Origin: Lentinula raphanica
Taxonomy: Eukaryota > Basidiomycota > Agaricomycetes > Agaricales > Omphalotaceae
DNA: 64,000 bases
NCBI GenBank assembly: GCA_027919835.1
Contig: JANVFP010000003.1
Span: forward strand, 1,178,001-1,242,000
Direction of reading: 5' to 3'
The notes beneath the pieces are model-generated. The model worked only from the letters and a program-made list of their open reading frames with translations, was not told the origin of the DNA and searched no databases. A program made the translations under genes and the position numbers. Below are positions 31,898 through 59,411 of this stretch, one piece after another; position 1 is the stretch's first letter, and each line of letters opens with the position of its first letter.

Positions 31898-34031
31898 TCA
31901 ACCAGACAAAGACTCTGCGTCACGGTGCTCTTCATCACAAGCCCCTTCTAATGTTTTGTTCCATTCGATCACCTTAGGGTGAGCAACAACTTTCTTGGGA
32001 TTGAAACCGAGCACTTGCAATCCTTCGATGGACGACGCTCGCGAGAGGGCGACGTAACTTTGACCTTATCACTATCTCAACCAACAAGACAAAATACACA
32101 TAGAACAGTACAATACCTTTCTCAAAGACACGCCCGAGATCGACTTTAACGCGGTGTATTGTCTGACCCTGGCTTTTGTGGATGGACATTGCCCATGCAA
32201 GGATTAGAGGTCTGCGATAAGATACATTAGTGTGGAACTGAAGCCAGACCATGAGAAAGATAAGCTCACAGCTGCACTCGCCGTGCAAGCAATTTACCCT
32301 CTGCGTCCTCCACCTTGAATTCATCGCGTTTAATTAAAACTGCTTCAGATCCATAACCCCCATCCTGAAGCGGGTACTCGAACAACACCAGAGGATATCT
32401 TTCTGACTCTTCAGCTTCTTTACTTTGTTTCAGCTTCTTCGTCGTTTTGACCTCAGACTTGACGGCACTTTGATTTTCTTTATTCTTGACATCAGACACG
32501 CTAACCGGTGTCCGACCATCTTCTAGTAGTTGCACGTATCGCAGGAGGGCGCCATTCTTCTTGGTTTCTGTTGGAGATTTGACGGAAGATGTCGAAGCGG
32601 ACGACACCTTGCTGTTCGCTGGGAGGACATTTGTACTCCCGAGCTTTAGGCCGGAAGAGGTACCTGTTGTTGGGGTACCACTAACGAGTTGTTGGGGAAG
32701 GTAAAATCCCAGCACACGACCAACAACACCGTTCACAAGAACATCATCGACGTTCTTGATCAACATGACTTGGGCATCTATTTTGAGCTCCAAGCGTTCT
32801 TCGGCAAGCAGGTTTTCGAGAAGTTTCGGTTTTGTGCCGCTATCGCGAGCGACATAGGGAACTTTGGGAGAGGGAAGCGCGTTGAGACGTGAAGCGTTGG
32901 ATTGTGCTACTTGGGCACGAAGGGGATAGAGTTCGGTGGGAAGGATGGGACTTGGCGGTAGCGGACGCGATAGGGAGTTGAACAAGGTGATAGCTTCATC
33001 TGATGGAGCGCCGAGGCGAAGAGCATTCAAAGCTGATACGAGAGCTTGCAAAAAGAAGTGGATGAGGAGACATGCTCGATTGAGGGTGCCGTTAGACTCA
33101 CTTGAACTCTTTTGCCTGAAAACATGGCGCAAGTTCACCGTATTTTCTATAGTGCTTGCCCACGCAGGAGACTCGAAAGCGAATATCGGCTCCTGGTTGC
33201 TCTTAGTCACCGGTGGGAGCTGGAAGAAATCTCCTGTGACGATGATCTACAATGACGGCGCGGGTTAAGGATTTCGAGCGATAAGAGATACAATCATAAG
33301 TACCTGTATACCACCGAAAGATTTCGGTGTCGGTTTCCTAAGGGTTGTCGCAATATCGTGAAGTTGTTGAAATAAGTGGCCGTCAACCATCGAGACTGTT
33401 TCCGGGTTCAGCCTCGATTGCAGAAGAAGACAATAGACAGAGACCTTCATCGATGATCAGAACTTTGGTCTTCTTCCACCTTTGGAGAGCAGGTCGACAA
33501 GTCTTGATACATTTAATCATGAGGTTCATATCGTTACAGTTGGGAGTCACTGCTCCCCAAGAGTGTATGGTCATGCCTTTCAGATAGGATCAGCCCCAGA
33601 AACCTAATGCATTAGCAGTAAAACCTACCTCCGACATTGGAAGCAGCCATCCCAGTACTCGCCGTGATTGATATCGCATCCTTTGACTTGGAATACTTTT
33701 GGCGTAGTGCTCTGATGATAGCTCGGAGTAACAGAGATTTACCGGTTCCTATGTACAGCAATAGAGTCAGATTTCATTTCGAAGAGAAGAGAATCAACCA
33801 CGGACCGGCTGCGCCAGTGAAGAATACATTCTTGCCTTCCTCTACAACCATTCTCAGAACTCTTGTTTGTTCTGCGTTGAGCGCGACATGAGACGGGTCA
33901 GTCGAATTATCGGAAGATCGTTTTAGTATAGGAACTTGAGGAGAAAAGAAGGAGTCGAGGGTGCCTTTGGATTTCTTGGTAACAGGTGTGGAATCAAGAT
34001 TGTGGGTAGCCTTTCGTTTTAGAGAAGACAT
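31898..34031 (-). CDS. PIF1: PIF1-family ATP-dependent 5'-3' DNA helicase
   Basis: PIF1 helicases unwind G-quadruplexes, R-loops and telomeric or replication intermediates in nucleus and mitochondria. ATG at 34031 with about eight introns. A basic head ([28 protein letters not shown]; the last resembles a PIP box) precedes [21 protein letters not shown]. All helicase motifs are present: Walker A TGAAG|TGKS (split by an intron), [22 protein letters not shown], Walker B VLIIDE with [25 protein letters not shown], a 2B-like insertion with [33 protein letters not shown] and [16 protein letters not shown]. Stop TGA at 31900-31898. This is a complete host-type gene with its own introns, not a Helitron helicase: no Rep domain is nearby. 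Confidence 0.88.
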
Positions 34032-40161: not shown

Positions 40162-41648
40162 GGAATGCAATGATTGAGTTGACCTCTGGACCAAGGACAC
40201 GGTCTCAGCAACAGGCAACAACTCATGAGGGTGCCCCAAAGCCTAACTCACCAAAAGCAATACCTGCCGTCAAGAATAAACGCTTTGACGGGGTGCATAT
40301 ACCCATAGATCGAAATAACCCTAGTAAAAACAAAACATCCGAAAAACCGAAGTCCAATCCGGACAATTCCACGCCTAATCATGACAGATCTGCTGGACCA
40401 GACCCCGATTCTTCTCAATCACTGAGGGAAGCTGCTTTGGAAAGGATACAGTCAGTGACCATTGACGATTTAACGGATGAGAGTGCGTTAGGTTCGGAAC
40501 GTGAGCCTGATCAGGCAGATCAACGGAAATCGAAGCAAGTACGATTCCGCGATCCGTCACCTCCTCGTACGGAAAATCCGAGAAGACCATTTGATGATGT
40601 TCAGCCCAGAGAAGTTACACCTCACCCTCGAAATCAACCAAAGCCGGAGAAGATACCTGAATCTAAGGGATCTTCGAAGGCACCAAAATACAGGCTGCAG
40701 AATGAACTGTTTACGCCTGGTCTAGAGGAAGAGCTTGCTGACCGGATAGTGCGAAAGACGATTGAATTGACTTCTTCCGAAGCTTTACAGCTTTCGGGGA
40801 AGATCAGGCAGATCGTAGCACGAAAGATACGGAATAAGCGAGTACTTCCGCAAGATCGAAAGAAAATGCTGCTGAACCTGGCTGATCAACAAGATCTAGC
40901 TACGGAAACACTTTCAAATGATGATTCCGAAGACGAACAAGTCATTTCCGTGGATGATCTAGCATTGCCCGAAGCTTGGGCTTTTGAAAGATTATCTGAG
41001 GATCGGGATGGGATGAAGGCAGGAGCGTTTGTTCAAGTAGATCCAGTAGAATCATTCTTAAGTGATGTAGATGAGAATGATGAACGACGAGATATGACCA
41101 TAGTTGCTACCATTGGCAATGGTCTCCGTGCAGTGTGGCCTGTTGTGAATGATCGGGAAGATCTCGAAGTAGAGAACCTCCTGGACTCAGGATCACAGAT
41201 AGTCGCAATCGATATGAGCGTGGCGTTAGGCTTAGGTCTAGGCTGGGATCCCGGAATCACCATACAGATGCAAAATGTACATGGCGGGATCGCGCGGACC
41301 AAAGGTTTAGCCCGAAATGTGCCCTTTCGATTTGGACCAGTCACAGTGTATTTACAGTTACATGTTCAAGAAAAGGCTCCCTTCGAAATACTGTTGGGAC
41401 GTCCGTTTGATGTGTTAACTGAGAGTGTCATTCAGACTTTTGGATCGGGTGATCAGGAACTTACGATTACGGATCCGAATACTGGAAAACGGTATACCAT
41501 GGGTACATATCCGAAAGGACATGGACCGAGAGCACCAAGAAAGGTGGTGGAACGAAAAGTATCACAGCCAACTCAACAGTTGCAACCCGAATCAAGACGG
41601 GAAGACACTCACGAGGAGGCGGAGAAAGTTCCGCAACCAAATTTTTGA
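40158..41648 (+). CDS. Gypsy protease ORF (retropepsin)
   Basis: The frame is open for about 496 codons, with its first ATG at 40170. The first half is disordered and charged (Pro/Ser/Asp/Lys-rich). A retropepsin domain lies at about residues 320-440: VENLLDSGSQIVAIDMSVAL with the catalytic DSG, then FEILLGRPFDVLTESVIQ, where LLGRPF is the typical ILG-type element. The family works as a homodimer that cleaves the polyprotein. The frame is -1 relative to gag and ends TTT TGA at another slippery sequence, so it is probably made only as a frameshift product. Confidence 0.8.
   Translation: MRNAMIELTSGPRTRSQQQATTHEGAPKPNSPKAIPAVKNKRFDGVHIPIDRNNPSKNKTSEKPKSNPDNSTPNHDRSAGPDPDSSQSLREAALERIQSVTIDDLTDESALGSEREPDQADQRKSKQVRFRDPSPPRTENPRRPFDDVQPREVTPHPRNQPKPEKIPESKGSSKAPKYRLQNELFTPGLEEELADRIVRKTIELTSSEALQLSGKIRQIVARKIRNKRVLPQDRKKMLLNLADQQDLATETLSNDDSEDEQVISVDDLALPEAWAFERLSEDRDGMKAGAFVQVDPVESFLSDVDENDERRDMTIVATIGNGLRAVWPVVNDREDLEVENLLDSGSQIVAIDMSVALGLGLGWDPGITIQMQNVHGGIARTKGLARNVPFRFGPVTVYLQLHVQEKAPFEILLGRPFDVLTESVIQTFGSGDQELTITDPNTGKRYTMGTYPKGHGPRAPRKVVERKVSQPTQQLQPESRREDTHEEAEKVPQPNF
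41639..41645 (+). promoter_or_regulatory. Candidate -1 frameshift site protease to RT (A AAT TTT, then TGA)
   Basis: Protease-frame codons are CCA AAT TTT TGA. AAATTTT fits X XXY YYZ with A and T tracts. A -1 slip continues at 41645 with TTG AAT AAC, exactly where the RT frame runs with no ATG of its own at the junction. Confidence 0.65.
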
Positions 41649-43167
41649 ATAACCTCTGGGATCTGAGTAGCGACCAGGGAGAGGTAGAAATCGCTCTTAG
41701 TGGGTACTGGGATGCTCAAGCGGAGGAAGTGTTTATCGAGTCGAATCAGGTGAAACGAGGTACCTTCTCCGATGAAGAATTAGCGGACGTGTATGTGCAA
41801 TGCTGTTTGCCAACGATCGAGAAGTCACACCCCGGAATTGCCGAAACCATATCACTATACCTGAACAAAGGTGTAGATCATCAACAAAATCGTGTGATCA
41901 ACCCATGGAAGGAAGGATTTAGAGCTGATCCAACCGTTGAGGACCTGAAGGAGACCTTTTACCAGTCCATGACAAAGGACGTTAGGTGGAAAGACTTACA
42001 CGGGTTAACTCGTCCATATGATAACACGGAAGATCTACCAGATCAAGTAGATCAAACAAAAGATGCGGAATTGTCTTCAATGACCCAAGATTTGGAGGCT
42101 GCGATGCATCGTGTTAAGCTCTGGGAACTCAAGAACGAGACGATTGACCAGCATATATGCGCATATAATGATGTGTTTTTGCCAGATCAGCCAGTTTCGG
42201 TCTTCGGTTCTCGAAAATATAAGCCTGTAGCGGTGAAAGTTCGCCCTGTCAAGGCTGATCTACCGGAAGAATTCCGTGTGCGGAGACACATTTACGGGGA
42301 TCCTTTGGCTGATCTACCAGATCTACCAACTCATCCTCCGGAATTCACGCCGGGTATTCGGTATACGCAAGAACGGAAAGAGATCATCGAGAAAAACCAT
42401 GCGGAAGGTTTCCTTACGGACGAGGAGATGAAGCTAGTTCATCATATGATGAAGTTGCAGGAAATGGGCTTTGCTTGGGAAGCTTCCGAGGGCGGGACAT
42501 TCAGAGAGGACTTCTTTCCTCCCGTGAAAATTCCGGTCATACCTCATGAGCCCTGGGTCGAACGAAATATTCCAATTCCTCCCGGAATCTTCGAAAAGGT
42601 TTGTAAGATCATCAAGGATAAGATTGATGCTGGAGTTTATGAACCATCTTGCTCGAGTTATCGGTCAAAATGGTTTTGTGTGGTCAAGAAGGATGGAACG
42701 AGTCTTCGTTTAGTACATAGTTTGGAACCCTTGAACAAGGTGACCATTCAACACTCCGGGATTCCTCCTGCTACCGCGGATATTGCTCGTCATTTTGCGG
42801 GTCGTGCCTGTGGTGGTCTGTTGGATATCTATGTGGGTTATGATGAACGACCACTTGATGTTAGTTCGCGAGATCTGACGACATTCCAAACTCCGTACGG
42901 ACCACACCGTCTCGTAAAGTTGCCTATGGGTTGGACGAACTCTGTTCCGATATTCCATGACGATGTAACTTACATGATGCGAGATGAAATTCCGGAATAT
43001 ACTATTCCTTACGTCGATGATGTTCCTATTAGAGGCCCGGGGACTCGTTATGAATTACCGGGTGGCGGATACGAAACTATCCCTGAAAATCCTCTGATCA
43101 GACGATTTGTCTGGGAGCATCTCCAAAATGTGAACCGAATCATTCAGCGGATGCGGTATTGCGGCGG
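41645..43167 (+). CDS. pol: Gypsy pol, proximal part: reverse transcriptase (interrupted by KDZ insertion)
   Basis: A linker of about 300 residues leads into the RT: FEKVCKIIKDKIDAGVYEPS, SSYRSKWFCVVKKDGTSLRL, VHSLEPLNKVTIQHSG, TFQTPYGPHRLVKLPMGWTN, and the catalytic YVDD in TIPYVDDVPIRG. The frame is open to the insertion point, just after NRIIQRMRYCGG. The aspartates of the first RT motif lie in the GLLDIYVGYDER block. Translation most likely begins by frameshifting at 41639-41645. Confidence 0.85.
43161..43167 (+). repeat. Left target-site duplication of the KDZ element (GCGGCGG)
   Basis: Identical to 56752-56758. Together they flank the inverted ends CACTTCAGTCACC... and ...GGTGACTGAAGTG. 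Confidence 0.85.
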
Positions 43168-43960
43168 CACTTCAGTCACCCACCTAACTAGGCCTACTTA
43201 GGCTTAACTTTCATCAAAATCCCATAGCCTACAGGAGCTTGATCCCTGGGATATCCCAGGTGTGGGAATCCCAGATGTGGGATTCCCAGGTACCTGGGAC
43301 ACCCAGACATGGGATTTCCAAGTACCTGGGACACCCAAATGGGATTTCCATACCTGTTATCTCAGTATGGAGTTCCCACCTGGGACTCCCACTTGGGACT
43401 TCCAATGCATGGGACTCCCATCTAGTCTGGGCATCCCATGCTAGTTCTTATGACATGGGAGTCCCACATCAGCTGGGAATCCCAACTCACTACTCATTAT
43501 GGGAAACCCACCTGAAATGGGAGTCCCATATGAGCTGGGAATCCCATGATGACCACTTATTATGGGAAACCCATCTGAAATGGGAGTCCCATATCAGTTG
43601 GGAATCCCAACTAACCACTTAGTATGGGAGACCCACCTGAAATGGGAGTCCCATATGAGCTGGGAATCCCATGATGACCACTTAGTATGGGATACCCACC
43701 TGAAATGGGAGTCCCATATGAGCTGGGAATCCCATGCTGACCACTTAGTATGGGATACCCACCTGAAATGGGAGTCCCATATGAGCTGGGAATCCCATGC
43801 TGACCACTTATTATGGGAAACCCATCTGAAATGGGAGTCCCATATCAGTTGGGAATCCCAACCAACCACTCAATATAAGAGTCCCACCTGAAGTGAGTTT
43901 CTCTGCATGGGAATCCCAAATATTTAATCCCAGGGACCAGTATGAGACCCACACCTGTCT
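43168..43960 (+). repeat. Left terminal inverted repeat with 63-bp subterminal array
   Basis: The first 85 bp match the right end almost exactly. From about 43470 to 43870 there are some six tandem 63-bp units, each with CCACTTAGTATGGGATACCC, AATGGGAGTCCCA and GCTGGGAATCCCA. Frames across this array (repeated WESH, HLKWES) are translations of the repeat, not genes. Confidence 0.88.
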
Positions 43961-44110
43961 AGGGGATTCTAAAATTCACAAGTAGCTCATGGCCATACTA
44001 CATCTACATAGCATTCTCAGTTACTATATATTCTTGCTTCTTTGTATTTTCAAGCACTTCATGGAACAAAAAAGGATTCAAATTGTGAGATTGTTAATAA
44101 ATGAGCAATT

Positions 44111-47100
44111 CTAGATTATATGTTCAGCGTATGCATCTGCAATATCTAGAGTATCAATATGCTCTATCAACGCTAAATCTAAGTCATCGTTGTCCAAATC
44201 ATCAATTTCATCCAAGTCATCAGTGTTCCCTTCTTCGTATGACTGCTCGTGGACGTCTTCTGTCTCCTCATCATTCAGACCTTCAAGAGATGGTACAACC
44301 TCTGATGGAAGACCTGTGAATGTTTGCATCCATCGCGCCGACATTTGCTTAAGGAGTTTGCGGCGCCGACGGAGCTGGTATAACAGTGTTACATCTGCCG
44401 AAATTGGTCAGCAGATCAATGGTGCGGAAACGATTCATTATTCATGCCTTCTGTGTCGCTCATGGCAGTTTGAAGAACCACCCATTCCTCATTATACCAA
44501 CTACCCAATGCGGATAGTTCATGCTTGAGCCGCTGAAGCTCCTCATCTGCTCGGTCTCGTAGCAGAATGCCACGGATGCCTGTTCGAACTTCTTCATCAG
44601 ATAGCCAGAGTGGTGGATGTTCGTTATCATTGTCTTCTGTTAGCCCTGTATCATCCCAAACCGCATCATCAACATCAAGGGTGAACAACTCCTTCATCAC
44701 AAGTGGTCTCGGAGCCTGAGCATGTGCTGGTGCTCGTTGAGAGGCGATCATGTTGGACATCGACTTGCATAAGTTGTTATATTTGCGAACCAGTGCTTCA
44801 ATCCCACTATCGCGTCGTTTGACAGTACTTTCAGTGTGATTGTGTAGCTTGCGTTCAGAAGCTAAGTACATTCTCATGAGTTACCAGTTGATGAGAAACG
44901 ATGGGATCTTACTGTTTGTCTGTCGACGAAAAGAGCGCTCAACACGATCACGCTCAAACTTCCGTGCGCGTAATCTTTGACATATACGAGCCTTTAGCGC
45001 ACAGGCATTCATGCGATCCCTCACAAAACTGCTTGAAGCCAGTCTCCGATAGTCCTGCATCCCTTCGACTCCAAGTCGAGACTCGGAGGCCCGAAGTTGG
45101 TTCTGTAGTTTGACTAACTTCTCCTTTACTGACGCCAGCTCTGATTCTGCCTCTGCTATCTCATATGGTTCCGAGAGAGGATCCGCTATGATGGCCTCCA
45201 TACGTTTCAGTGTTTCAGCCGAAGTGTCGCGCGCTCTTCTTAGCTGTATAGTGCTTTCGATCGCTTTCTTTCCTGCGGTTTGAGATTGCCCTATAACCAA
45301 ATGCATGCATGTCATGAACAAATCCACGAGACATGATACAAGGGATACATACGTGGGAGAGGGCGTGTAGCAGAGGCCACCTGCAGCTGCCATTGACTGC
45401 GAAGAAATTCTGGATCACGCATCGAAGAGAGTACGTCCTTGTCTCCCTCATCGCGTCGGGCTTGAGCTTGTCGCCATTTCCTCACTAGGAACCCCGCAAT
45501 ACCCTCTAGATTGACTTGATTGATATGATGGATTTGCATATCCAACGTATAAAGCCGCGTATAATACTAGAAGTACTGTCAGTTATTCCTCTTGAAAATT
45601 TTGTACATCCGACGACTCACACCACAAACTCTGAGGTATGCAATAAGCGGGCTGATCAGATGCCAAAAGCGTTCACACCCCTCTCCGTCAGATAGTCCAA
45701 AACCTATGCATTTACGAGGATGGTAAATGCACTGACAAGCCCAGCCATGCCCGAATGCGTGGAAGACCGAAATTCCAAAGCCAATTCGGGGGAAATACTC
45801 ATTAAGGAAGCCCCACTTGACGCAACTACGCTCGAGCTGGCAAGCTATGTCGTATAGCAGGCCAACAGACCAGTCTGGAGGTAGGTGCTTGAATAACATA
45901 TCGACAAGGGCTAGTGCGTAATGTTGGCGTTCTCCCGGGGTGGTCATGTTCACTAACCACAGCACGTTGTCGTGCCGACACAAGAGTCCCATAACTGCCG
46001 TGGAGTCGAAAAACTGGGTACTCGCTTTCTGTCTGTCACCATCAGCAGCGGTAAAACTGTCGTTACAGGCATCTAGCACGGAGTTCGGAACTTTGAGATG
46101 AGGCTCCATTCTATCATCCTCCTGTTCCGGTCGAGCAGGTGCCTTATTCGTCCGTATTGAGTCCACCTTCGCTTCCCAATGGTCAACATGGTCTTGGGGA
46201 ATGAATGACGTCTTCGGATGCTCGTACAATGGATCCCGTACTTGCTTGTTATGTTTCTGCGTGAAGCACGCATCGAGGCAGACGATAGCACTAAAACTAT
46301 GTCATGCTTAGCATATTCTCAAGGTGGACATATGTCGAAGGACTTACCCTCCTTCGAATTTCATATCACTTCCAAAGCAGAGGGGACAACGACTCCGAAG
46401 GTACTCGGATGGACGAGTGAGTGTTTGTGGTATAGCACCTTCAGTGCGAATCCGCTTCGCAGGTGCTCCTGACTCATCCGATTCATCGTCGGATGAGTTT
46501 GGTGATCCAAACAACTCCTCGACGTCGAAGTCAGTAGCGGTCTCGTTTATTGAGGGTACGGGGGGTGAAATGGTGTCTGATGGATGGATATTTGCACGAG
46601 TTTTCTCGATCACCGACTGTACCGAACTTTGAGCGGCCTGTTGGAGAACGTTGTACCAACGCAGAGCATTGGAGAACTGCCGCCGAAGAGGATCCTAAGT
46701 GTAATCGTAAGAACATAGGCCAGAGCACGAGACCAAACTAACCCACCTTGCCGCTCATTTGATAACCTTGCGATCGGAGAAAATCTTCGATTGCAGCACA
46801 GAAAGCAGTGACGTTGGGCGAGATGCGGAGAAATAAGCGAGTTACAAAATCGAGTAGGCGGATGTCGAATGCTAGAGTAGGGAAGATCGGAGCACAACCG
46901 AACAATCCCAGCCGCATGAGTTGAGTCGCTGCAGTTCTACATTGACAGACGACCAGGGAAGTTCTGTGAACCTCTGAACAACAGGAGTCAGCCGAAATTG
47001 AGCAAATTTCGAAGGAAACTCACTGTTGAAGGATACTACATTAACCTCTAACCGTCTTTCACCTGAACCCATGCAAACACAAGTTTGAGACTCTAACGTC

Positions 47101-47555
47101 ACCTCTTGAGCAAGATTGGCTGAATTGCAAAGATATTTCATATACACTGGTACGAGTGAAGGTATAACCAGCGTCTGCCAATTGGTAACCTGTCGAAGTC
47201 GTTTGTTGCGATGTGTCGTAGATGTAGCCGCAGATGCTTCAACAATATTAGAAACGATTGGATCCGCAGGTTCTTGACTGCGTGTGTCCTTGGCCTTCGA
47301 CGCATTGGAATTATCTACGCCGAGATCAAAGAGTGGTCTTTCAAGGAAGCCCACTTGTCCACGAGGAACAGGTAGAAATCGTCTTTGGGCGTGTGTTCTG
47401 CCATGCGGGCCATATAGAACGACAGCCGCCGATCTTTTTGTGGGTGATTTCGAATGCGGCGAGCTTGGGAAAGCCACGTATCGAGAACGTGAAGGTGTCT
47501 GCGGTCGAGTAGGATTGCTCTCGAGTTGAGATTTTGGTATCCGCAATCGAGACAT
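44111..47555 (-). CDS. KDZ-family transposase with CxC-type zinc cluster
   Basis: This is the transposase of the KDZ superfamily, with an RNase-H-fold catalytic core. ATG at 47555 (MSRLRIPKSQL), about nine exons and about 1000 aa, ending TAG at 44111. Ordered features: a disordered basic head; a Cys cluster (CVCMGSGERRLEV ... VVCQC) and MRLGLFGCAPIFPTLAFDIR; NVTAFCAAIEDFLRSQGY; an acidic linker; RCPLCFG; IVCLDACFTQKH; then the catalytic region CRHDNVLWLVNMTTPGER, HYALALVDMLFKHLP, YDIACQLERS, FHAFGHGWACQCIYHPRKC and GFGLSDGEGCERFWHLISP. Coiled-coil and acidic regions fill the C-terminal third, with IEHIDTLDIADAYAEHII at the end. All core motifs are intact and no internal stop was found in the exons followed, so it may be active. 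Confidence 0.88.
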
Positions 47556-48374
47556 GGTGAAAGTGTAGAGGGAGGTCACTGAACTGCAAAGCGTAAGACT
47601 CTTCTTGTCATTGTTCCTTTGCTTGGTCTAGAAGAATAGACTATTGTTCGATACTGACAATCAAAATGAGTCGGCTAACGCACCTGTGAATACCGACAAC
47701 TTCCACGTAGCAGATCCAGCATCGTTCGATATCCAACGTGGTTGCTCCGACTCCGATAGTATTGATCACAGTTTCGTTTCTGTATACGCTAACTTGCAAC
47801 TCAATCATTCATAACTCACGTCGTAAGTCTGACAACGTACCGGAGATTCCGATAAGCTCATCGATACTCGAACGCGTCGACATTGAATGATCCCGAAAAG
47901 CTTGTAGAAACTTGAAACTCGTCTGAAGATGCCGGCAGCAAGAGGTCGTGCAGCAATAGGAGGAAGTTGAGCAGTGAGGGCGTTGTATAGAGGTAGTGAG
48001 AGAGTCCAAAAGGCTTCGAAAGGTTTGAAGGCTGTCGGGGACGAGCAGGACGACGAGCAAAGGACTTAGCGTGAAGCAAGGAGAAAATGTTTTCCCACGC
48101 GTTTCCCGCCAGGTTGAGCCACAGGTCCGGAAGAAAAACTTCGTTTTTGGAAATATTCTTTACATCCGGAAGAATATTTCCAAAAACGAAGTTTTTCTTC
48201 CGGACCTGTGGCTCAACCTGGCGGGAAACGCGTGGGAAAACAATTTCTCTTTCTTCTTACTCGTCGTCGTTACTTATGGCAGTGAGGTCGCTAGGCTTCT
48301 TTGGGCTCCGTCTTCGTGTTCAACCCCCGAGGTATGTCTCTCCGATGCTTCAAATGTCTTACTTACTGATATAA
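47556..48374. other. Divergent intergenic region inside the KDZ element
   Basis: The 819-bp space between the transposase and the NGN/KOW gene. It contains a perfect 73-bp-arm hairpin and no credible gene; frames at 47809-48079 and 48071-48394 lack protein character. Confidence 0.6.
48088..48242. repeat. Perfect inverted repeat: 73-bp arms, 9-nt loop
   Basis: Every base from 48088 to 48160 pairs with 48242 down to 48170, around the loop TACATCCGG. With one bulge the pairing extends to about 48081-48249. Any transcript would fold into a long hairpin; as DNA it could extrude a cruciform. Perfect identity of the arms suggests recent origin or active maintenance. Confidence 0.95.
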
Positions 48375-51300
48375 ATGTCAGATATACGCTATAACGACGA
48401 CGACGACGACGACGAAAGACGCTACGCGATTAGTGAGTTTTTCCAGAGTCCTTCATCTGAAAAGGATTGGGAACGATTTCGGAATCAGTTTTGGAGTAGT
48501 CAGGCTTCGCAGGACTCGCAAATGGCAGCAAACAGCGCTCTAGAGGCCCTTGCGGGTATGTCCTTTCGTTGTGCTTGATATGTTTCTTCTCATTATCAGG
48601 TTAGAATACGGCTCAGACGATGAAGAACTCGTATATCATCCTTCGAGCCCACAAGAATCTACGTTGACACGAATCGCCGCATTTCACGATGATCACGACG
48701 TACCAACTACATCCGATCCCAACCTCCTTGCAGGTATGCGATAGGTCTAACTATGTCCATCCATATTTCTCATCGCCCATCGTAGAAAACACTTCGAAAA
48801 ATGATGGCGAACCTATGTCACAACCCATCACAGTACCCACTCTTACTTCTCCTTTGATATCTGACCGGGACTGCTTGACGCGTGGAGGCTCACCGCTTAT
48901 GTTCTCGTCTCAACCTGTTCACAAATTGTCGAGGATCAAACAAGAGTACGCTCGGCGATTTTGGATATAGAGGCTATCGACGATGAAGAAGAAGAGATGG
49001 CGCGCGACAGTGATATCTCAGAAGGTAGGACTGCCTGCTTTGATTTTCAAATCTTCCTAAATTGTCGTGTCCAGATGATTTCATTGAATACTCCATGCCC
49101 GGCGACGCTTCTATCTCACAATCTTCTACGAGTACTTTTGTTCTGCCCCGAACTGAAACAGCTACGACTCGCTTCATCGACCATCTCGAAGAGACCTACG
49201 TTCACGGTAGTCAGACCCTGATCGAGGAGTCTGAGTCTCAGACGATCGAGGAAATCACACGCACCAATCATCAAGACCGAGATTGGGTAGAAACGGTTCT
49301 GCTTGAGGCTACTCATCTTCCCGATGATTGGGTACTCTTTCGTGCTGATTGCAAGGTAAGATGAGCTTGTGTCATCGACGTCCACCTGTACTCATGTATC
49401 AACTTAGTCGGGCTCCGAATACAACATCCTCTTCGATGTCATGGACTCGCCAATTCTTCAGCGCGAAGTGCGAAGTGCCTTCTATAATCCTTCTTTGGGT
49501 AGTCATATTTACTTCGAAGCTTCGATTCCTCATGATCGGCCCTCCGTTCTCATGAACTTCTTAACCGTGCACTCGGACATCTACGTCTCGTCTCTATTCT
49601 GCGTTCAGCCCATAGATCACAAAGCATGTCTGCGGATACTACCTCATAATGACCGTATATTCTCTCCTGGTACTTGGGTCAAAATACAATCACCAGGTCT
49701 CTATAACGGCGACACGGGATTGGTTCGGGGGCTTCGTCATATTCCAGGTCGATTGAACATCGCCGTAGCACTCGTTCCACGTATCGTTCGCGAATGGGAC
49801 GAACCAGATCCTCCCCGTCCCAAACTCGATATCTTGACCGAGGATCACCTCGATGAGAATGACATAGAAAGGCGGACCGCTAATGGAATCTCCTATTTCA
49901 AGTACAACAATCAATTCTTCGAGTCAGGTCTTATGATCGAATATTTCTCACCGGCTATGTTGTCTGTGGCGCCCGACATATCTTGGGACAATCGCCGACT
50001 CTTCATAGAGAGCAAACACCCGTTCGTGTTACAACGGCTTAGCAGTATGCCAACGCCTGAACTCTGGCACTTCGAAGAAGGGGAATCGGTTTCTATCGTA
50101 GGGGAGGAGCTTGACTTACACGGAGAGATTGCGAGAGGCATCATAATTGAGGTTTTCATCGGAGAGTGCGAGGTGGAAACCAATGTCGGCGAGACTGTCG
50201 TCGTGCATATGGATCATCTTGTCAAGAGATTCGTACCCGGCGATTATGTGAAGGTTATGAAGGGTACTCACACCGATACAAAAGGCCTGGTTGGTGAAAG
50301 AGATGGTCGTGTCCTTGGTTTGATTCCCGATTCCTCCCACTCTGTGGTATGTTATCTCAACAATCTATTCATTGTTCTTTTGCATCACCTTATCGTTCCT
50401 TTTCGCCAGAGCATCTGGGTCGATGTCAACAGTGTTACTGCAGCAGTTTCTGATTCTTCACTTCCCATGCCGACGAATAACTTTCCCTGGAAGGATCTCA
50501 AAGTTCGGCGAATCGATCACGATTTCTATGCGCAAATCGAGGGAGTGATTAAAAGGGCTTGGCCTGACGGTCATGGTTCCGCTCGTATCTTAATGTATAT
50601 CCCTTCGCACGATTGTTCCTTCGAACTAGATTACACCCAGGTCGCTGAGGTCGAGTGAGTGGCTCTCTTATGGTTCTCCCAAGTGACATTGAGCGTTTTG
50701 CAGGTCAGATAAAACCCTCGATCAACTTGCTCTGGACCTTGACGGGCAATCATTCTTCTTTGACCGTTTCAGGATCGATCGCTCTCTCCATCGGATGAAG
50801 ACAGCCCCTGAACCCTGGATTGGTGCTCGTGTACGTGTTGTTCAAGGCCATAACCATGGTCTGACTGGCACCGTCCGGGATGTGAACCGTTATCGTGTCG
50901 ACCTCAAAATGAATCCTCGGGCAAGTGGGATTATTCTGACGGTTGAACTTGATGTCGCTCGAGGCAACATTGTAAGCCCTCAAGTGAGACTTGATTATGA
51001 TTCTGTCCGTGAACTACAGTGAGCATCCCTGACATATCAGTCAATCTATCATTTACTTTTCGCTAGAACATGTCAACTGTTACACCAAGTTATCCCTCCC
51101 AGCTGGCGACAGTCTTTTTTCATGCCGAGTACGACGTATATTCCCACCAAAGACATTTCCCTGACAGACCCTGTTCCTGCTCGAGCTTACACTCCCGTAA
51201 TTGATTGCGATGCAGTCTCGAAGTTATACGAATTTGTTGGCGCCTGGCATCCCGGCCTAGATAGCGGTGGAATCCCAACACATGGTAAGTTTCCTACTCG

Positions 51301-51895
51301 TTCGGTCGTGAAAAGCCTCCTCACAAGCTGGATAGAGGTCGACAAGTTAGGCCCGAACTTCGTGGCACCTCCTACTCACTTCCTTTGTAACCGAAATCTT
51401 CTTGGCATATCTATCCGAGTAGACATTGTCGATGGTCCTTACGACACTCTCAAAACCAAAGCTGGTGAGAGATATGTCATTCCTACGCCTACGGCAAACG
51501 GAAACATACTCTTACGGGTTGATCAACCTAAGATTAAAGTTGGTGATGTCTTTTTGGACACCACAACAGTTATGAAACACCGCGTTCGGCCAAAACCCAG
51601 CACTGAGAAAAGGTTGATGGTTGTAATTGGAGGAGTACAAGAACACATTGGGAAACTCGTGCGGCGGATTCATCACTTTTTCAAGGGAAGCAAGACTGAT
51701 GCAAATAAATGGTTCAAACTTGTTGTAGTGGAATTCTCAGGTGAAGCGGAGAGAGTCACGGATCTGGAGCTTGAGCTTTCACCTAACGACGTAGAATTTG
51801 TACGAGAGAGTGACAAAGTGCGGAGAGCTTCAACCCTCCTGTTAGCAGAAAGGCGACAGTTCTTGAGCCATTCAGCTCCCGAGATACGTCCATAG
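48375..51895 (+). CDS. NGN/KOW-domain protein resembling Spt5/NusG, KDZ cargo
   Basis: ATG at 48375 with about nine exons and roughly 1000 aa. The head is acidic (SDIRYNDDDDDDERR), as in Spt5. An NGN-like domain reads DDWVLFRADCK|SGSEYNILFDV, then LGSHIYFEASIPHDRPSVLM and DIYVSSLFCVQPIDHKA. KOW-type motifs follow: FSPGTWVKIQSPGLYNGDTG with LVRGL, FVPGDYVKVMKGTHTDTKGL, GARVRVVQGHNHGLTGTVRD, and a late one, MVVIGGVQEHIGKLVRRIHH. Spt5 and NusG accompany RNA polymerase, so a transposon-borne relative might tune transcription of the element; that role is inferred. The C-terminal heptad-type repeat region of true Spt5 is not evident. Stop TAG at 51895. Confidence 0.72.
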
Positions 51896-52130
51896 GCATA
51901 TTATATGTTGTACTTTTGGAAAATTGAACAGTAATGAATTCAACCTCCTGGGCTCTCCCTTTGAGTATTACATCTAAGTCTCTAATGCTCGAAGACACTT
52001 CAGAACGCGTCCGAAATGACGTTAAACTAAACACAATGGAGGTGGTTCAGTCACGTTATCAAGAGGTGGATCCGTTGGTCTATGGTTGTGCACAACTTAA
52101 TCTTTAACACCTATCGTGGTCGTTGTAGCG

Positions 52131-55100
52131 ATGCCACCTCAAACTCGCGCCAGTCGTAAACTGCAATCACAAACCAACGGAATATCGCCGATGTTAACGT
52201 TGTCGACAGCGCAAGGCAGTAACCCTACAAGAGTATGTGTACTCCCTTGTTTTGCGGAATCATCCTCACTCACTCAGCATTCACAGAAGACCAAGCGGCA
52301 AAACACCAATGCGAGCAAGCGCAGCAAGCGACTGAAGACAGTATTGAATAATGAGGAAGAGGAGGATAACAACAACGAAAGTGAAGTACCTTCAATAGTA
52401 GGTGTTGTTGCTTTGCTCGAAGTTCTGTGCTCAAAAGCTTAATGCCGTATAGGGTTCTAAGCGCAAGCGCTCCACTGCCGATGAAGACGTTGAGAAAGAT
52501 GTTGAGGATCGTAATGAGAACATCAATAATACACCTGGAAGTTGGACGACAAGGCAGCAGTCCAAGAAAAAACGTTCAAATGCTTTGGTAAGTGTTGTGC
52601 TTGATAGAATGAACTTTCTTCATGAACTCTGTGTAGGAACTCGGTGAACAAGATCTCTCAGCGAGCCGTTCTCATCTGCTTGAAAGAGCCGCCACTCGTA
52701 ACCCATCAAAGTCGCCTGCTGTCGGCCTTCTATCATCTGCCTCAGCCGAAGACAATGTTAGTTCTGATCACGAACTAGCTTCTCGTGACGTGCCATCTCC
52801 TTATGCGCCATCTCCTGACGCGCCATCTCTCGATGCTCAATCTCCCGAACCCCCAGCTCCTGACCCGCATGCGGCGCCATACGAGTGGTTTCTGAGTGGC
52901 CAAGATCCTCTAGTTAGTACCCCGGACGATTGGGAGGAGGAGGACGACGGTCTCACAGCAGCTATCGTTGCACATCACCTTCAAAGAGTCGGCGAATTAC
53001 GTGACAGCTACCGAGAGAAAGCTTGGGCGTTGAAACCTCATCTCGCTCAATTAATCGATCAAAGATGTGATCTCGAGGCGGAGGCTTTGGCTTGTTCACC
53101 CTACCACCCTAGGGACGAATTGCCAGAGGAAGACAGACTTCCCCTGACCCCCGAAGAAATTGAAGAAGAAGAACTCAGAACCTTCAAGAGAGATCCCAAC
53201 GACCCTGATAATATAGACGCGATCTACGAACACCTCAAACAGCATGATATGATAGGTGTATACGGCATCTATTTTCGTTCAACTTACCTCTATCGCGAAG
53301 TGGTGACAGGTCTCCTACCCGAAGTATCAATGCATTTTCAGAAGCGATTCGGGCCAGCGCTTCCACTAGAAATACTCATGCTTCATGATATGCGGAAGCA
53401 GTTGCCGCTTGATCCTCGAAGTGTTGCAGACCACGAGAAGCACCTGTCGTCATTCAAGATGCATAATGAAATGGATAACATCGACAAGTCTGACTTCCCG
53501 GATCAGCCTCAGCCTGCTCCTGCTGGTCCTAGCCAGCCCCGTCCTTCGATTGCTGGTCCTCGCCAGCCTCAGCCTCAACCTCCTCGTCCTCCGCTTGCTG
53601 GTCCTCACCAACCTCAGCCTCCTCGTCCTCCGCTTGCTGGTCCTCACCAACCTCAGCCTCCTCGTCCTCCGCTTGCTGGTCCTAGCCAGCATCAGCCTCC
53701 TCGTCCTCCGCTTGCGGGTCCTAGTCAGCGTCAGCCTTCTCGTCCTCCGCTTGCGGGTCCTAGCCAGCCTCAGCCTCCTCTGCTTGCTGGAGACATTGTT
53801 CATACCCAAAACGATCCCAACTCTCTCTTTGATATCGATGATTCTGAAGTTGTTTTTGCTTCTTCTAAAGGCAAACCTAGTCACGATGACTCTTTGGCGC
53901 CACGCACACACGAAAGTGGAGGAGAACGTAACGTCGATATTAATCTTGCCAGTCGCCGTGGAGCCCAAAGACGGCGTAACACGAAGGGCAAAGAGAAGGC
54001 CAAGCGCGTTTCTGATGATGAACCTTCATCAGCAGAGGATGAAGGATCGTCAATCGAGGATGAAGAATCGTTGACTGGGAGCGAAGATTCACCGAGCGAT
54101 GAGGAAGTTCAAGGACGGCAGAAGAGAGGTCCGTTACCCAAAACGCTCAAGAAAAAACTTGATAGCCTGCGTGCCGACTATGACAATGTTATTCATGATC
54201 TTTCTCGTGAATACAAGGTCGACTCTCAGCGCCTTTTCTCGTATTTCCATCCCGAAACTCCTATGACACGCGACCTGAATCTCTGGAACATTTTCGAAAT
54301 GTGGTATGGCAAAAATGGTGAAACAAAGAAGCCTGAAACAAGTGCGTACATAGTCTACTGTTTATCTCAACGTATTCGAAGCATTTTTATAGTGCTTCTT
54401 GGCGAGTGGTCTACGTTTGTTAGCCAGGAGTTCGACAAGTATCTCAAAGCGAAACTCCCAGCGGACAAGTTGAAGGATCAAGACGCTCGGGAAGAAGCTC
54501 TTAAGGAGCAAATCGAGTGGTATAATGCAAACATGGACAATTTTGTTGAACGAAAAAAGCAGTCCGGAAGGATGGGAAAGACGCTCCTTAAGATCCTGCG
54601 GCCTATTATAGCAATGGTGCGTTCTTCCACAGTCTCTTGTCTTGTGTCATCGCTGAGTTGAGATTCAGTCCAGGAAAATTCAACGAGAAACCGGTTATGA
54701 GATTGGTGGCTATGCGGTCCATTCAGAACTTGAGAGCATAGCGTGGGTAGGGACAGACCTTCTTGAGACCGTAAAGGCAACACATGGTACTCAGATGATC
54801 GCCCAAGCAACACAAATAGCCTCTCTTGTGCAGTGAGTATCATCTAGATTCTTTGTTGTTTTCCTCATCATTTCATAGGGTTCAGAAGATGGTCGATAAC
54901 AACATCGATAAGCAGCTTGGGGAGCTAGCCAACCACTGTGTGCTCCCAAAGGGGGTGTCTACGCGGGACCGAGATCGTAAAGTTATTCCCAAAATTTTTG
55001 CTTATGATGCAGGTAGGTCCTTACTCTTGTGTCTCATGCACAAATTGATAGCGCTATGTATGTTGCAGAACGCATCCTAGGTGACGATGATTCAGTCAAT

Positions 55101-55758
55101 ATAGTACCATCAAAGCTTCAACCTACCATGTTCTTGACGTGGGCTTACCAGGCTAAATGTCGTATCATGAATTGGCCAGTCGGAGTCCCTTTTATCCACG
55201 GCAGTGGAAAATCTCACAAGAGAATCGAGGACACGGTTAAGAGTATTCACAGCTATGCCTCAGAAGACTTGGGAAAGATAGCTCATCCCCGCATTGCGCA
55301 AATCATGCGGGCTTCAAAGAATGAGGAAGAGCCTGACGATGCAGAGCCATATTTTGAAATGGTGCGCTGGAGTGAAGGTATGTTTTGGTTGAATTGTGCA
55401 ATGCTCGAAGTTGCTTTGCTCAGAAAGTTTTATGTATGCAGATGAACGGAAGCTTCCCTTAGATCGCATCGACAAAATCCCACTTGTATCTGATATTGAT
55501 GGCAATATCATTGTCGCAGTAGCACAGTCGGAGGCCTACCAGGAGGCTATCACACGCTTTAGGGCTCATGGCACAAATGGCGTGAGTGCTGATGCACAGA
55601 ACCCAGCAATGCCCAATCCCCGGCCTGCACAGAGAATGGCACCATTATATCAGGACGAGGACAATGAGGAAACAGATCCTCTTCGGGCTGAGCATCCTCC
55701 TCCTCTTCCGCCTAGGAACACTAGACCCCCATGGCCAGTTCCTGCTGTCCGACCCTAA
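52131..55758 (+). CDS. Large KDZ cargo protein of unknown function, nuclear-type
   Basis: No known domain was recognised. ATG at 52131 with about eight exons and about 1050 aa. The head has RASRKL and several bipartite NLS-like runs (KRQNTNASKRSKRLKT, GSKRKRS, KKKRS). Next comes a Pro-rich middle with a 13-residue tandem repeat, then an acidic/Ser region EDEGSSIEDEESLTGSEDSP. The C-terminal half is globular: LPKTLKKKLDSLRADYDNVI, YFHPETPMTRDLNLWNIFEM, GETKKPE, IGGYAVHSELESIAWVGTDL, PTMFLTWAYQAKCRIMNWPV and GVPFIHGSGKSHKRIED. GSGKS looks like a P-loop fragment but lacks the preceding GxxxxGK spacing. The tail is Pro-rich. Ending TAA at 55758. Confidence 0.65.
53500..53790 (+). repeat. Coding 39-bp tandem repeat (PPRPPLAGPHQPQ)
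   Basis: About six to seven copies, exact in the first ones (39-bp period from 53582), drifting to LAGPSQHQ and LAGPSQRQ. They form a Pro-rich spacer in the cargo protein. Confidence 0.85.
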
Positions 55759-56079
55759 TACTGACTTATGGTTACTAGTCATGTATGATTATCAAAAATG
55801 TATGCAGTATTATATGATATGAACAAGTGATCTGATTACCCAATGTAATGGAACGAAAAATTGAAGCCTTGAATGACTGAAACAAGTGTTTCAACCTATC
55901 CATGAGGGCTGAATGAAATTGACCCACTGACTTCATAGAGATGGTTAATGAGGTGAGGAAAATGAAATGGAATACAGTAAGGATATTCCAGTTTAGAAAT
56001 AGAATACACTGGAATAATGTTCATTACATACCATATATGATGAGATTAGCTCTACACAATATATGGATTGATTCTCAAC
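55759..56079. other. AT-rich spacer before the right KDZ end
   Basis: 3' flank of the cargo gene with no coding frame. The TGGGANTCCCA-type repeats begin just after. Confidence 0.5.
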
Positions 56080-56751
56080 TAATATGGGATTCCCATAATA
56101 AGTGGTAGGTTGGGACTCCCAACTCAGGTGGGTTTCCCATAATGAGTGGTAGGGTTGGGAATCCCAAGTGACATGGGACTCCCATTAAAGGTGGGTATCC
56201 CATACTAAGTGGTCAGCATGGGATTCCCAGCTCATATGGGACTCCCATTAAAGGTGGGTTTCCCATAATAAGTGTTTAACTGGGATTCCCAACTGATGTG
56301 GGACTCCCATCTAAGTTGGGCTTCCCATAATAAGTGTTTAACTGGGATTCCCAACTGATGTGGGACTCCCATCTAAGTTGGGTTTCCCATAATAAGTAGT
56401 CAACTGGGATTCCCAACTGACATGGGACTCCCAATTCAGGTGGGTTTCCCATAATGAGTGGTAGGTTGGGACTCCCAGATTATATGGGACTGCCATAGTA
56501 TAAAATTACTATGGGATGCCCAGACTAGATGGGATTCCCATACAAGTGGATATCCCAAATGGGAAGTCCATACTGAGATAATGGGCTTGGAGATCCCAGT
56601 TGGGTATCCCATCTGGGTGACCCATGTACTTGGGAATCCCATGTCTGGGAATCCCACACCTGGGACATCCCAGGGATCAAGCTCCTGTAGGCTATGGGAT
56701 TTTGATGAAAGTTAAGCCTAAGTAGGCCTAGTTAGGTGGGTGACTGAAGTG
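56080..56751 (-). repeat. Right terminal inverted repeat with 62-bp subterminal array
   Basis: An inverted counterpart of the left end. Units of about 62 bp carry TTTCCCATAATAAGTG, GGGATTCCCA and TGGGACTCCCA between about 56085 and 56470. Then comes the less repetitive stretch and the 85-bp terminus ending GGTGACTGAAGTG. Confidence 0.88.
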
Positions 56752-56758
56752 GCGGCGG
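56752..56758 (+). repeat. Right target-site duplication of the KDZ element (GCGGCGG)
   Basis: Copy of 43161-43167. Confidence 0.85.
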
Positions 56759-59411
56759 AACCTTCTCGGGACCTAAAGCATTCCTGTGTTGCGCTGAAAC
56801 TGTAGTGGTTGGACACTGTTGCACGTACGAAGGACAGAAACCGGAAGACAGAATCGCAACTACGGTTCTGACTTGGCCTCCGTGCTCTTCTAAGACACAG
56901 GTCCGAGCCTTTCTGGGAACTGTTGGTCAGCTCCGGATGTTCATCCACAACTACGCTAAGAAAGCCTCACCTTTGACCAAATTAACGGCGAATATTCCGT
57001 TTGAGTGGAAGGATGAGCATGTCATAGCCATGGACCTGTTGAAAGACGGAGTCCGTAATGCACCAGCCTTAAGAGTCATAGTATATGACTGGGAAACACA
57101 CTTAGCAGTGGATAGTTCTTACATGGGTACGGGATTTTACATCTATCAGATTGATCCTGTAGATCAGACGAAGATTTACTATAATTACTTCGGATCCATC
57201 CCGTATAATGAACGTGAAGCTCGGTTTTCTCAATCTAAGCGTGAACTCTATGGTTTGAAGGTTGCTCTCCGAGCAACACACTATCTTCTTTATGGATGTC
57301 GGAAACTCACGGTGGAAACGGATGCTAGCTATATTCAAGGAATGCTTGAAAATCCGAGTAGTGGTCCAAACGCTACGATCAACCGTTGGATTGAAGATAT
57401 CCGTAAATTCCATTTCGATTTGATCCATGTCAAAGGAGCAACCTTTGGACCTGATGGTTTGTCTCGAAGACCTCCGGGAGGTTGGACTACCCCTCGTCGG
57501 GAAACCGAAGAGGATCTAGCAGAAGATGCAGATGACTCCAACAACGTTAGGTTCTTCAAAGCGGACGAAGCGGATGATCCATTGCCCTTTGAATCATTCA
57601 AAGATCATATAGATCCCCGGACAGGATACTTTTGCGTGACCATTGAAGATGAGTTTGCGGAAGATCTTCAAGTTGCCCGGGAGGAAGAGATCCAGCATGC
57701 ATTCCTCAAAGAACGTTTAGAGGCCTCGGGAATGCCTTTGACCTCTCAGTTTCTGCAGTATACTGCGATCCCCGACAATGCTACTTGGGGACCTGATCAC
57801 AAATATCCGATATCTCATAGATCGGATGGCGGAAATCGTCTAGATCAGCAGTTACCGGAAATCCGAGCATGGCTTAAGGACCCGAATGCTGAGCAATTCG
57901 CGAAGTTGGACAAAAGACAACGAGCGGAAATGGACCGGAAAACACTGTCCTTTTCAATAGACTCGGAAGGTCGACTGTTCCATCGGAAACCATCCACAGA
58001 TCAACTGCGTTTAGTGGTTGAACCGGAAAAACGAATGTATCTATTGCACAGTGCTCATGATGCTTTAGGACACAAGGGTACCTATGCTACGAAAGACTTC
58101 TTAGAAAAGAGGTTTTGGTGGCCTGATCTGGAGAAAGACGTGGAGTGGTATGTGAAAACATGTCAAGCCTGCCAAGACCGACTTAGGTCTTTGGTACGGA
58201 TCCCTCCAACGGTGACCTTCACGCCATCCTTGTTCCAAAAGATACATATCGACACGATGGTTATGTCTCCGGCCAGTAATGGTTGCAGATATATCGTTCA
58301 CGGAAGGGATTCCTTGTCGAGTTGGTCGGAAGCTAGGGCACTGAGAGTGGAAAACGCGAGATCACTCGCGGAATGGTTCTTTGAAGACATCATATGTAGA
58401 TGGGGGTGTCCGGAAATCATGGTCTCGGACAATGCACCACAGATGAAGCTCATGTTGCGATGGCTCGAACAGAAATACGGGATCCGTGGAATACAGATAT
58501 CGCCTTACAATTCACAAGCTAACGGAAAGATTGAGCGTGCTCACTTTGATCTGAGACAAGCACTTGCGAAAGCGTGTGCGGGAGATCTGTCAAAATGGTA
58601 CTACTTCTTGAAACCAATACTTTGGGCTGATCGTATTACTGCACGGAGAGGTTTAGGCTGTTCACCATACTTCGTAGCTACCGGTACGGAACCTCTGCTA
58701 CCTTTCGATATTGTTGAATCTACATATTTGGTCAATCCACCAAATCGAATACTATCATGGGAAGAGTTACTGGGCTTCCGGGCTCAGGCTCTTTCCAAAC
58801 ATCGTTCCTTCGTCGAGAACATGAAATCACGGATCGACGAGAACAAACGTCGAGAAGCGAGAGTTTTCGAGGAAAAGTACAAGTACACCATTAAGGACTG
58901 GGATTTCAAACCGGGAACCTTAGTACAAGTACGGAACACTGCTATCGAGAAGAATTTGGATCGGAAAATGTACCTTCGATATCGTGGACCTATGGTTGTC
59001 ATCCGGAGAACACGAGGAGGCGCATATATCATAGCGGAAATGGATGGCACTGTGCTTAAAGACAAAGTGGGTGCTTTCCGTGTGATCCCGCATCATGCTC
59101 GTTACGAACCGATTGAACTGCCGGAAAATATACATGATCTGATAGATCTGTCGCCCGAGCAGTTAGAATCGATGGTACAGGATGAGGAAGACGAACCTGA
59201 GGAAGTGGAGGACTTTATTTTCAGTACTGTCCCGCGAATAAACATTTCCGGTGATGATCAGTCGAATTCCGTTGAACCACCACTGGTTCCGCCTGTTGAA
59301 CAGCTTGATCCGGAGGATCTGAAGGCTGCTGAGTCCGAAGATCAAGAGGAAGAGGCGAATCCGTCTCTACCGAATGGTCCACGACGAAGTGGCCGTCGGA
59401 AATCTTTCTAA
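56759..59411 (+). CDS. pol: Gypsy pol, distal part: RT connection, RNase H, integrase
   Basis: The frame is open from the insertion site to TAA at 59411. It starts in the RT thumb/connection (TQVRAFLGTVGQLRMFIHNY, ASPLTKLTANIPFEW). RNase H follows: LAVDSSYMGTGFYIYQID, FSQSKRELYGLKVALRA, VETDASYIQGML and GPDGLSRRPPGG. Integrase has the H2C2 zinc module (HDALGHKGTYATKDFLEKRF, CQACQDR) and a DDE core: IHIDTMVM, IMVSDNAPQM and SQANGKIERAHFDLRQAL. The C-terminus is acidic and ends GPRRSGRRKSF; there is no chromodomain. With 41645-43167 it forms one interrupted gene. Confidence 0.88.

Follow-up and report, generated by a model that had tools for sequence, protein, structure and literature searches.

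A KDZ transposon in the basidiomycete Lentinula raphanica, 13,584 bp long and lying at 43168-56751 of the window (by which we mean the whole 64,000-nucleotide stretch of DNA analysed, C3:1178001-1242000 in our contig numbering), carries between exactly defined ends not only its transposase gene but also a gene whose sequence identifies it as a divergent paralogue of the elongation factor SPT5, and a third gene, c2, whose product has no known domain. KDZ transposons are known as such; what appears to be new is a KDZ element in which an SPT5 paralogue and c2 are recurrent parts. The two added genes look like a conserved module, as judged from their distribution and divergence, and like working parts rather than passengers. 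The reading that we favour, and to which we give slightly less than an even chance, is that the element has its own SPT5-like elongation or anti-silencing factor.

The element is delimited by perfect 85-bp terminal inverted repeats and, outside these, by a duplication of GCGGCGG (feature coordinates are collected in Table 1). It interrupts the pol frame of a high-copy retrotransposon, the left flank of which has at least 42 matches in the genome (best 40 of 80 candidates scored), three of these being the occupied sites themselves (C3, C10 and C64). At 43167 the left pol open reading frame (ORF; 41453-43201) is in codon position 2, and at 56759 the right one (56748-59411, with RT_RNaseH and Integrase_H2C2 domains) is in position 3, so that taking out the element together with one of the two 7-bp copies brings back the register. 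All six of the other retrotransposon copies examined are uninterrupted and have the 7 bp singly, with one base altered in two of them. An original prediction for this DNA had placed the ends at 43168 and 56751, described the restored pol register and called the element KDZ. The ends are confirmed by the inverted repeats, the duplication and the empty sites, the register by frame arithmetic, and the identity by the transposase domain (PF18758), which scores 195.8 bits against a cut-off of 26.6 (E 1e-57, profile positions 4-217 of 217); as to the other copies and empty sites that it had asked for, genome searches gave the four copies of the window family described below and the six empty sites. 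The first five exons of the transposase model give 648 codons without a stop, and there is a weak match to the CxC1 zinc cluster near the transposase (E 9e-4; 19.8 bits, under the cut-off of 26.9). We used a terminal 17-mer, CACTTCAGNCACCNACC, as a signature; the genome has 80 occurrences of it and none of its reversed control. Inside the inverted repeats lie two arrays of the palindrome TGGGANTCCCA, with 35 exact occurrences inside the element and none in the rest of the window, as compared with a mean of 0.03 and a maximum of 1 in 500 runs of a first-order Markov model of the same DNA; genome-wide there are 368 occurrences, and 26 of the reversed pattern. The arrays are probably binding sites of some protein of the element.

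The second gene had been described in the original prediction as cargo for an NGN/KOW protein; the gene is present, and that label is replaced here, on the strength of profile and Protein Data Bank (PDB) matches, by SPT5 paralogue. In Pfam the KOW match of the window protein passes (27.6 bits) and the NGN match is under its cut-off (15.2 bits). The ORF at 49408-50658 alone matches SPT5 chains in PDB (best E 7e-10), and a profile built from nine relatives matches S. pombe spt5 (E 3e-43) along a stretch that starts in the acidic N-terminus and takes in the NGN and KOW regions. SPT5 chains align with this profile over positions 6-439 to 6-478, and it also matches plant RDM3 (8hyj_W, E 4e-19). A Foldseek search with the model of a relative, P0015, gave as top matches the W and Z chains of RNA polymerase II (Pol II) elongation complexes, with low whole-chain TM-scores. 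The aligned proteins have in common a family-specific C-terminal region past the KOW repeats, and in all 12 of them there is the same YxEA/FxEA glutamate (residue 37 of the window ORF), which we take to be the Spt4-contact residue of Spt5. According to PMC7593976, Spt5 cannot bind Spt4 without a glutamate that is universally conserved. Host SPT5 itself is probably encoded elsewhere, at C42:206727 (NGN 85.8 bits), and besides this locus the genome has only two NGN matches, of 27.4 and 24.8 bits. When the best 7990 word-sharing candidates in the protein database were scored, one relative was found beyond Lentinula, a Collybiopsis protein (P0019), and a profile search gave just two proteins, both from Lentinula and both already in the set. 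Three public models of 1491-1751 amino acids (P0001, from the window locus, P0002 and P0004) hold SPT5-like plus c2-like sequence and seem to be two genes merged in one model.

The start of c2 at 52131 was inferred from a relative, P0023. The N-terminal part of the protein is basic and of low complexity; Pfam had nothing to match it up to E 1, nor PDB anything better than E 0.5, the predicted fold is unusable (mean pLDDT 31), and the database relatives are five proteins, all from Lentinula. This bears out the earlier description of a protein of roughly 1000 residues without assignable function, the length being about 1,060. It had also been stated that no TET/JBP signature was seen, and a domain search agrees: none of the 28 matches in the genome lies within the window. 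Within 15 kb of SPT5-like loci there is likewise no TET/JBP-like match (0/30, a figure uninformative alone since 0.5 would be expected). As a separate observation, 11 of the 28 TET/JBP-like matches lie within 15 kb of Plavaka elements (1.3 expected) and five within 15 kb of KDZ (1.7 expected).

A DNA search of the genome gave four copies of the window element. The copy at C60:50239-63956 (13,718 bp) has the same ends and a separate 7-bp duplication, CACCATC, and is 98.4% and 96.9% identical to the window element over two main aligned blocks. No difference separates the copy on C10 from that on C64 (both 13,559 bp), either in the element or in the 909 bp to its right, after which both contigs end, and they share the insertion site of the window. 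Set against the window element they show 4 substitutions and 22 short indels, of which ten are in model exons (the frame-changing differences in the three genes likewise number ten); their right flank is without substitutions and their left flank 2.2-2.3% different. They are probably assembly duplicates, that is, duplicated and poorly polished contig ends, and if they are read in this way two insertions are certain, those of the window and C60. A one-base length difference breaks one frame in each of these two, in the N-terminal part of the SPT5-like gene in the window and in the transposase gene in C60. Each difference may be genuine or may come from an error in sequencing, and in either case the frame is open at that point in the other copy. 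The suggestion of recent activity made in the original prediction has only partial support: there are two insertions of such high identity, but a frame is broken in each, and the C10 and C64 copies have the frame-changing differences just given. The large palindrome between the divergent genes (83-bp arms) is retained in the C60 copy.

Comparison of the window and C60 copies gave ratios of nonsynonymous to synonymous substitution rates (dN/dS) of 0.09 for the transposase (P 0.0009; 2 nonsynonymous and 7 synonymous changes, first five exons with one gapped codon excluded), 0.19 for the SPT5-like gene (P 0.0006; 7 and 11) and 0.33 for c2 (P 0.004; 15 and 13). All three genes thus show purifying selection between these copies.

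The same set of genes is found in a second, diverged element. At C26:640-27896 (27,257 bp, duplication AGCTCGG) KDZ, SPT5-like and c2 matches all lie between the ends, and its SPT5-like protein (P0006) has 51% identity to that of the window. The occurrence of the same gene set in this relative is what makes the added genes look like working parts and, with SPT5-like identity between the two bounded families at 49-51%, the association with KDZ looks old. Nested in the C26 element is another of 7,395 bp (G000:C26:11802-19196), which has the duplication AATATGG (7 bp), a KDZ fragment and c2. In all, 20 opposed pairs of the terminal signature were examined for duplications (at least one further pair, C30:300370-303280, lies outside this set, and three of the 20, at C7:1599533, C28 and C63, probably represent a single locus in duplicate). 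An exact duplication was present in 17 of them (7 bp in 4, 8 bp in 13) and absent in 3; with 7 bp at both window-family sites, these lengths agree with the 7-8 bp of KDZ-type duplications. Seventeen pairs span only 1.4-5.7 kb (8 bp in 12, 7 bp in 2, no exact duplication in 3) and look like deletion derivatives, and those with 8-bp duplications were perhaps mobilised by a different KDZ transposase. A pair on C33 (8,160 bp, 8-bp duplication) has a KDZ match and no SPT5-like match. A similar palindrome array comes after the signature at C2:1803036, with KDZ about 12 kb and SPT5-like 15.5 kb away.

Linkage was then counted over the whole genome. Merging of matches less than 6 kb apart gave at least 107 KDZ, 30 SPT5-like and 35 c2 loci, the C10 and C64 copies being included in the last two figures. 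Counts were made from the best-scoring candidates, and some second KDZ or Plavaka matches per locus were omitted from the proximity test; the limit of 15 kb was our own choice and the P values assume independent loci. Of the SPT5-like loci 19/30 lie within this distance of KDZ (1.8 expected, P 3e-16), as do 25/35 c2 loci (2.1 expected), and with the window family excluded the figures are 15/26 and 21/31. Plavaka elements, which are also abundant and were used as a control, gave chance levels (SPT5-like 2/30 with 1.4 expected, c2 3/35 with 1.6 expected). Gene order and strand vary among the loci, from which it appears that the linkage has outlasted rearrangement. In a tree of 21 KDZ domains (this genome only, stops entered as X) the four with SPT5-like neighbours do not fall into a single group, and the window and C26 types fall in sister branches that include domains without such a neighbour.

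These results bear on two simpler explanations. It is extremely unlikely, in our estimation, that we are dealing with host paralogues that merely lie near transposons, or with an artefact of annotation or assembly: unrelated elements do accumulate in repeat-rich regions, and the C10 and C64 copies do resemble assembly duplicates, but at two unrelated sites, and again in a second family, the genes are enclosed by exact ends that have duplications beside them, there is no enrichment beside Plavaka and the likely host SPT5 lies elsewhere. Nor, in all probability, are the genes a passenger cargo acquired by chance and of no benefit to the element. Most KDZ loci lack the SPT5-like gene, as such an origin would allow, but the linkage in diverged elements, the purifying selection and the degree of identity between the bounded families speak against it. 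The original prediction had called the genes cargo; neither behaves like a casual cargo, as both recur beside KDZ transposases and in the diverged C26 element. It had also named copies lacking these genes as evidence that would overturn it, and here the outcome is mixed: the four window-family copies keep the genes, and 24/35 c2 loci have no SPT5-like match nearby.

Several observations weigh against the reading that we favour. KDZ-linked SPT5-like loci (19) concern a minority of the KDZ loci (at least 107), 11/30 SPT5-like loci have no KDZ match within 15 kb, and 24/35 c2 loci have no SPT5-like match within that distance. The locus at G000:C6:3704-19234, whose KDZ domain is close to that of the C26 element, has no SPT5-like match and may have lost the gene; a c2 match and the right-end signature are present there. 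Neither full copy of the window family (window and C60) is intact in all genes, the dN/dS values are based on small counts (9, 18 and 28 substitutions) and the fold model used for structural comparison is that of the relative P0015 and not of the window protein, with a mean pLDDT of 55 and pTM of 0.30. There are, finally, 22 weaker SPT5-like loci (E 8e-9 to 6.5e-4), 0/22 near KDZ and 0/22 near Plavaka, which we chose to tally separately; if they are pooled the link with KDZ becomes 19/52. Because these have no KDZ nearby, the idea that all SPT5-like loci are genes of KDZ elements was rejected. The group is strongly diverged, with some members in pairs about 7.5 kb apart; the member examined (L075, G000:C1:754700-756200) has a 423-codon frame aligning with the NGN and KOW regions, with no Pfam match and with Gln at the inferred Spt4-contact position, where the 12 aligned proteins have Glu. 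The group perhaps belongs to another mobile element with an SPT5-like gene, which would suggest that other mobile elements have also adopted SPT5.

SPT5 helps RNA polymerase to read through genes, and TET/JBP is a presumed anti-silencing gene. If the element does have its own factor of this kind, the transposase, perhaps with c2, would bind the TGGGANTCCCA arrays and the ends and move the element by cut-and-paste, while the SPT5-like protein would pair with host Spt4, ride Pol II and either sustain transcription of the long intron-rich genes of the element or prevent their silencing, by analogy with the RfaH-type NusG paralogues that serve long foreign operons in bacteria. The invariant glutamate (12/12), if it is indeed the Spt4-contact residue, fits such pairing with Spt4 and Pol II. 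A bolder claim, that eukaryotic transposons encode a dedicated, polymerase-riding SPT5 that allows transcription despite silencing, and so have a counterpart of RfaH, we put forward as doubtful.

Two other functions for the protein can be envisaged. SPT5 is a Pol II-binding protein and KOW domains have an affinity for nucleic acid, and on these grounds the SPT5-like protein might link the transposase to transcribing Pol II, directing insertion to open or transcribed chromatin, or might be part of the transpososome together with c2. SPT5-like and c2 do co-occur (c2 lies no more than 15 kb from 10/30 SPT5-like loci, against 0.6 expected), and P0001, P0002 and P0004 join the two, though probably as merged models. 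We nevertheless consider such tethering unlikely, in view of the c2 loci that have no SPT5-like match within 15 kb and of the nested element on C26, which is bounded with c2 and whose c2 is separated by 9 kb from the SPT5-like gene belonging to the larger element around it. Alternatively the protein might act as a decoy, competing with host SPT5 on the polymerase responsible for silencing transcripts, in which case the element would escape silencing based on RNA or heterochromatin. This would be in keeping with the match of the family profile to RDM3, with the restraint of heterochromatin by Spt5 in S. pombe (PMC10659198) and with the part that KTF1, an SPT5-like protein of plants, plays alongside Pol V in DNA methylation (PMC10229537). 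The conserved putative Spt4-contact residue, however, would suit an active elongation factor equally well, and we think a decoy improbable.

Table 1. Coordinates of the KDZ element, its genes and its insertion site (window positions, except in the last row)
Feature	Position	Strand	Remarks
Retrotransposon pol frame split by the element, left part	41453..43167	+	Host DNA, outside the element
Left target-site duplication	43161..43167	.	GCGGCGG, 7 bp; from flank and empty-site comparison
Left terminal inverted repeat	43168..43252	+	85 bp, perfect; starts CACTTCAGTCACCCACC; signature CACTTCAGNCACCNACC
Left subterminal palindrome array	43263..43918		TGGGANTCCCA, 19 exact; about 0.66 kb
Transposase gene	44111..47555	-	KDZ domain at 45597-46295; C-terminal exons tentative
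Near-perfect palindrome	48078..48252		Arms of 83 bp, spacer of 9 nt; separates the transposase and SPT5-like genes, which are divergent
SPT5-like gene	48375..51895	+	NGN and KOW regions, own C-terminal region; ~1,000 amino acids, 10 exons
c2	52131..55758	+	No known domain; about 1,056-1,076 amino acids; gene model starts 52191
Right subterminal palindrome array	56085..56656		TGGGANTCCCA, 16 exact; about 0.57 kb
Right terminal inverted repeat	56667..56751	-	85 bp, perfect
Right target-site duplication	56752..56758	.	GCGGCGG, 7 bp
Split pol frame, right part	56759..59411	+	RNase H and integrase zinc-binding domain
Short signature pairs, examples	G000:C20:25516-28416; C32:517491-520428		Elsewhere in the genome

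Elsewhere in the window there are a frame with a SOG2 domain (RAM signalling; 5373-7925, plus strand) and a Pif1-like helicase frame (32266-33246, minus strand).

If the favoured reading is true, genomic parasites have brought equipment of their own to transcription elongation, and there is a natural and testable handle on how fungal transposons escape from silencing; were the RfaH counterpart real, it would be one kept until the families of a single genome were about 50% diverged. The results may also explain several Lentinula proteins labelled 'chromatin elongation factor SPT5', and the ends, duplications and palindrome motif can be used to look for similar elements in other fungi. Text, title and abstract searches of the papers open to searching found no report that connects a KDZ transposon with SPT5, although a mention in Iyer et al. 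2014, the founding KDZ paper, is possible. The main text of PMC12730594 contains none of KOW, SPT5, NusG or Lentinula and that of PMC12810828 no KOW; the available portion of PMC12062965 mentions KDZ and neither KOW nor SPT5, and in that of PMC12477816 'Kow' is an author name only.

Among the known systems close to it is Kyakuja, of which Kojima 2025 (PMC12730594) reports two families in Laccaria with 7-bp duplications, CA..TG ends and TET/JBP as an extra gene. The window element is like these in its KDZ transposase, in the 7-bp duplication and CA..TG termini that serve there as criteria for Kyakuja and in having an additional gene aboard, and it shares with the TET/JBP-carrying fungal transposons of that paper the character of a DNA transposon bearing a chromatin-related gene. 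It differs in that the two Laccaria families are described there as having TET/JBP and no inverted repeats, whereas the window element has the SPT5-like gene and c2, no TET/JBP and perfect inverted repeats of 85 bp, and on account of these repeats we call it Kyakuja-like and do not assign it to Kyakuja. The KDZ1-KDZ3 elements of Cryptococcus, whose mobility has been demonstrated (PMC12810828), resemble it in being large (about 9-11 kb) with long inverted repeats; their duplications are 8 bp (KDZ1) and 4-8 bp (KDZ2 and KDZ3), as against 7 bp here.

For the SPT5-like gene itself there are two parallels. RfaH and the plasmid-borne NusG paralogues (PMC7593976) are likewise specialised NusG/Spt5 paralogues that are carried on mobile DNA or serve it. 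RfaH, however, acts on a bacterial polymerase and has a known recruitment site, while here the setting is eukaryotic and the role putative; the palindrome arrays are candidate sites for any binder, and recruitment of the SPT5-like protein to them is likewise putative. Plant KTF1/SPT5L (RDM3) is also an SPT5 paralogue tied to transposon biology, but it is a host gene that serves silencing, whereas the SPT5-like gene described here lies inside the transposon.

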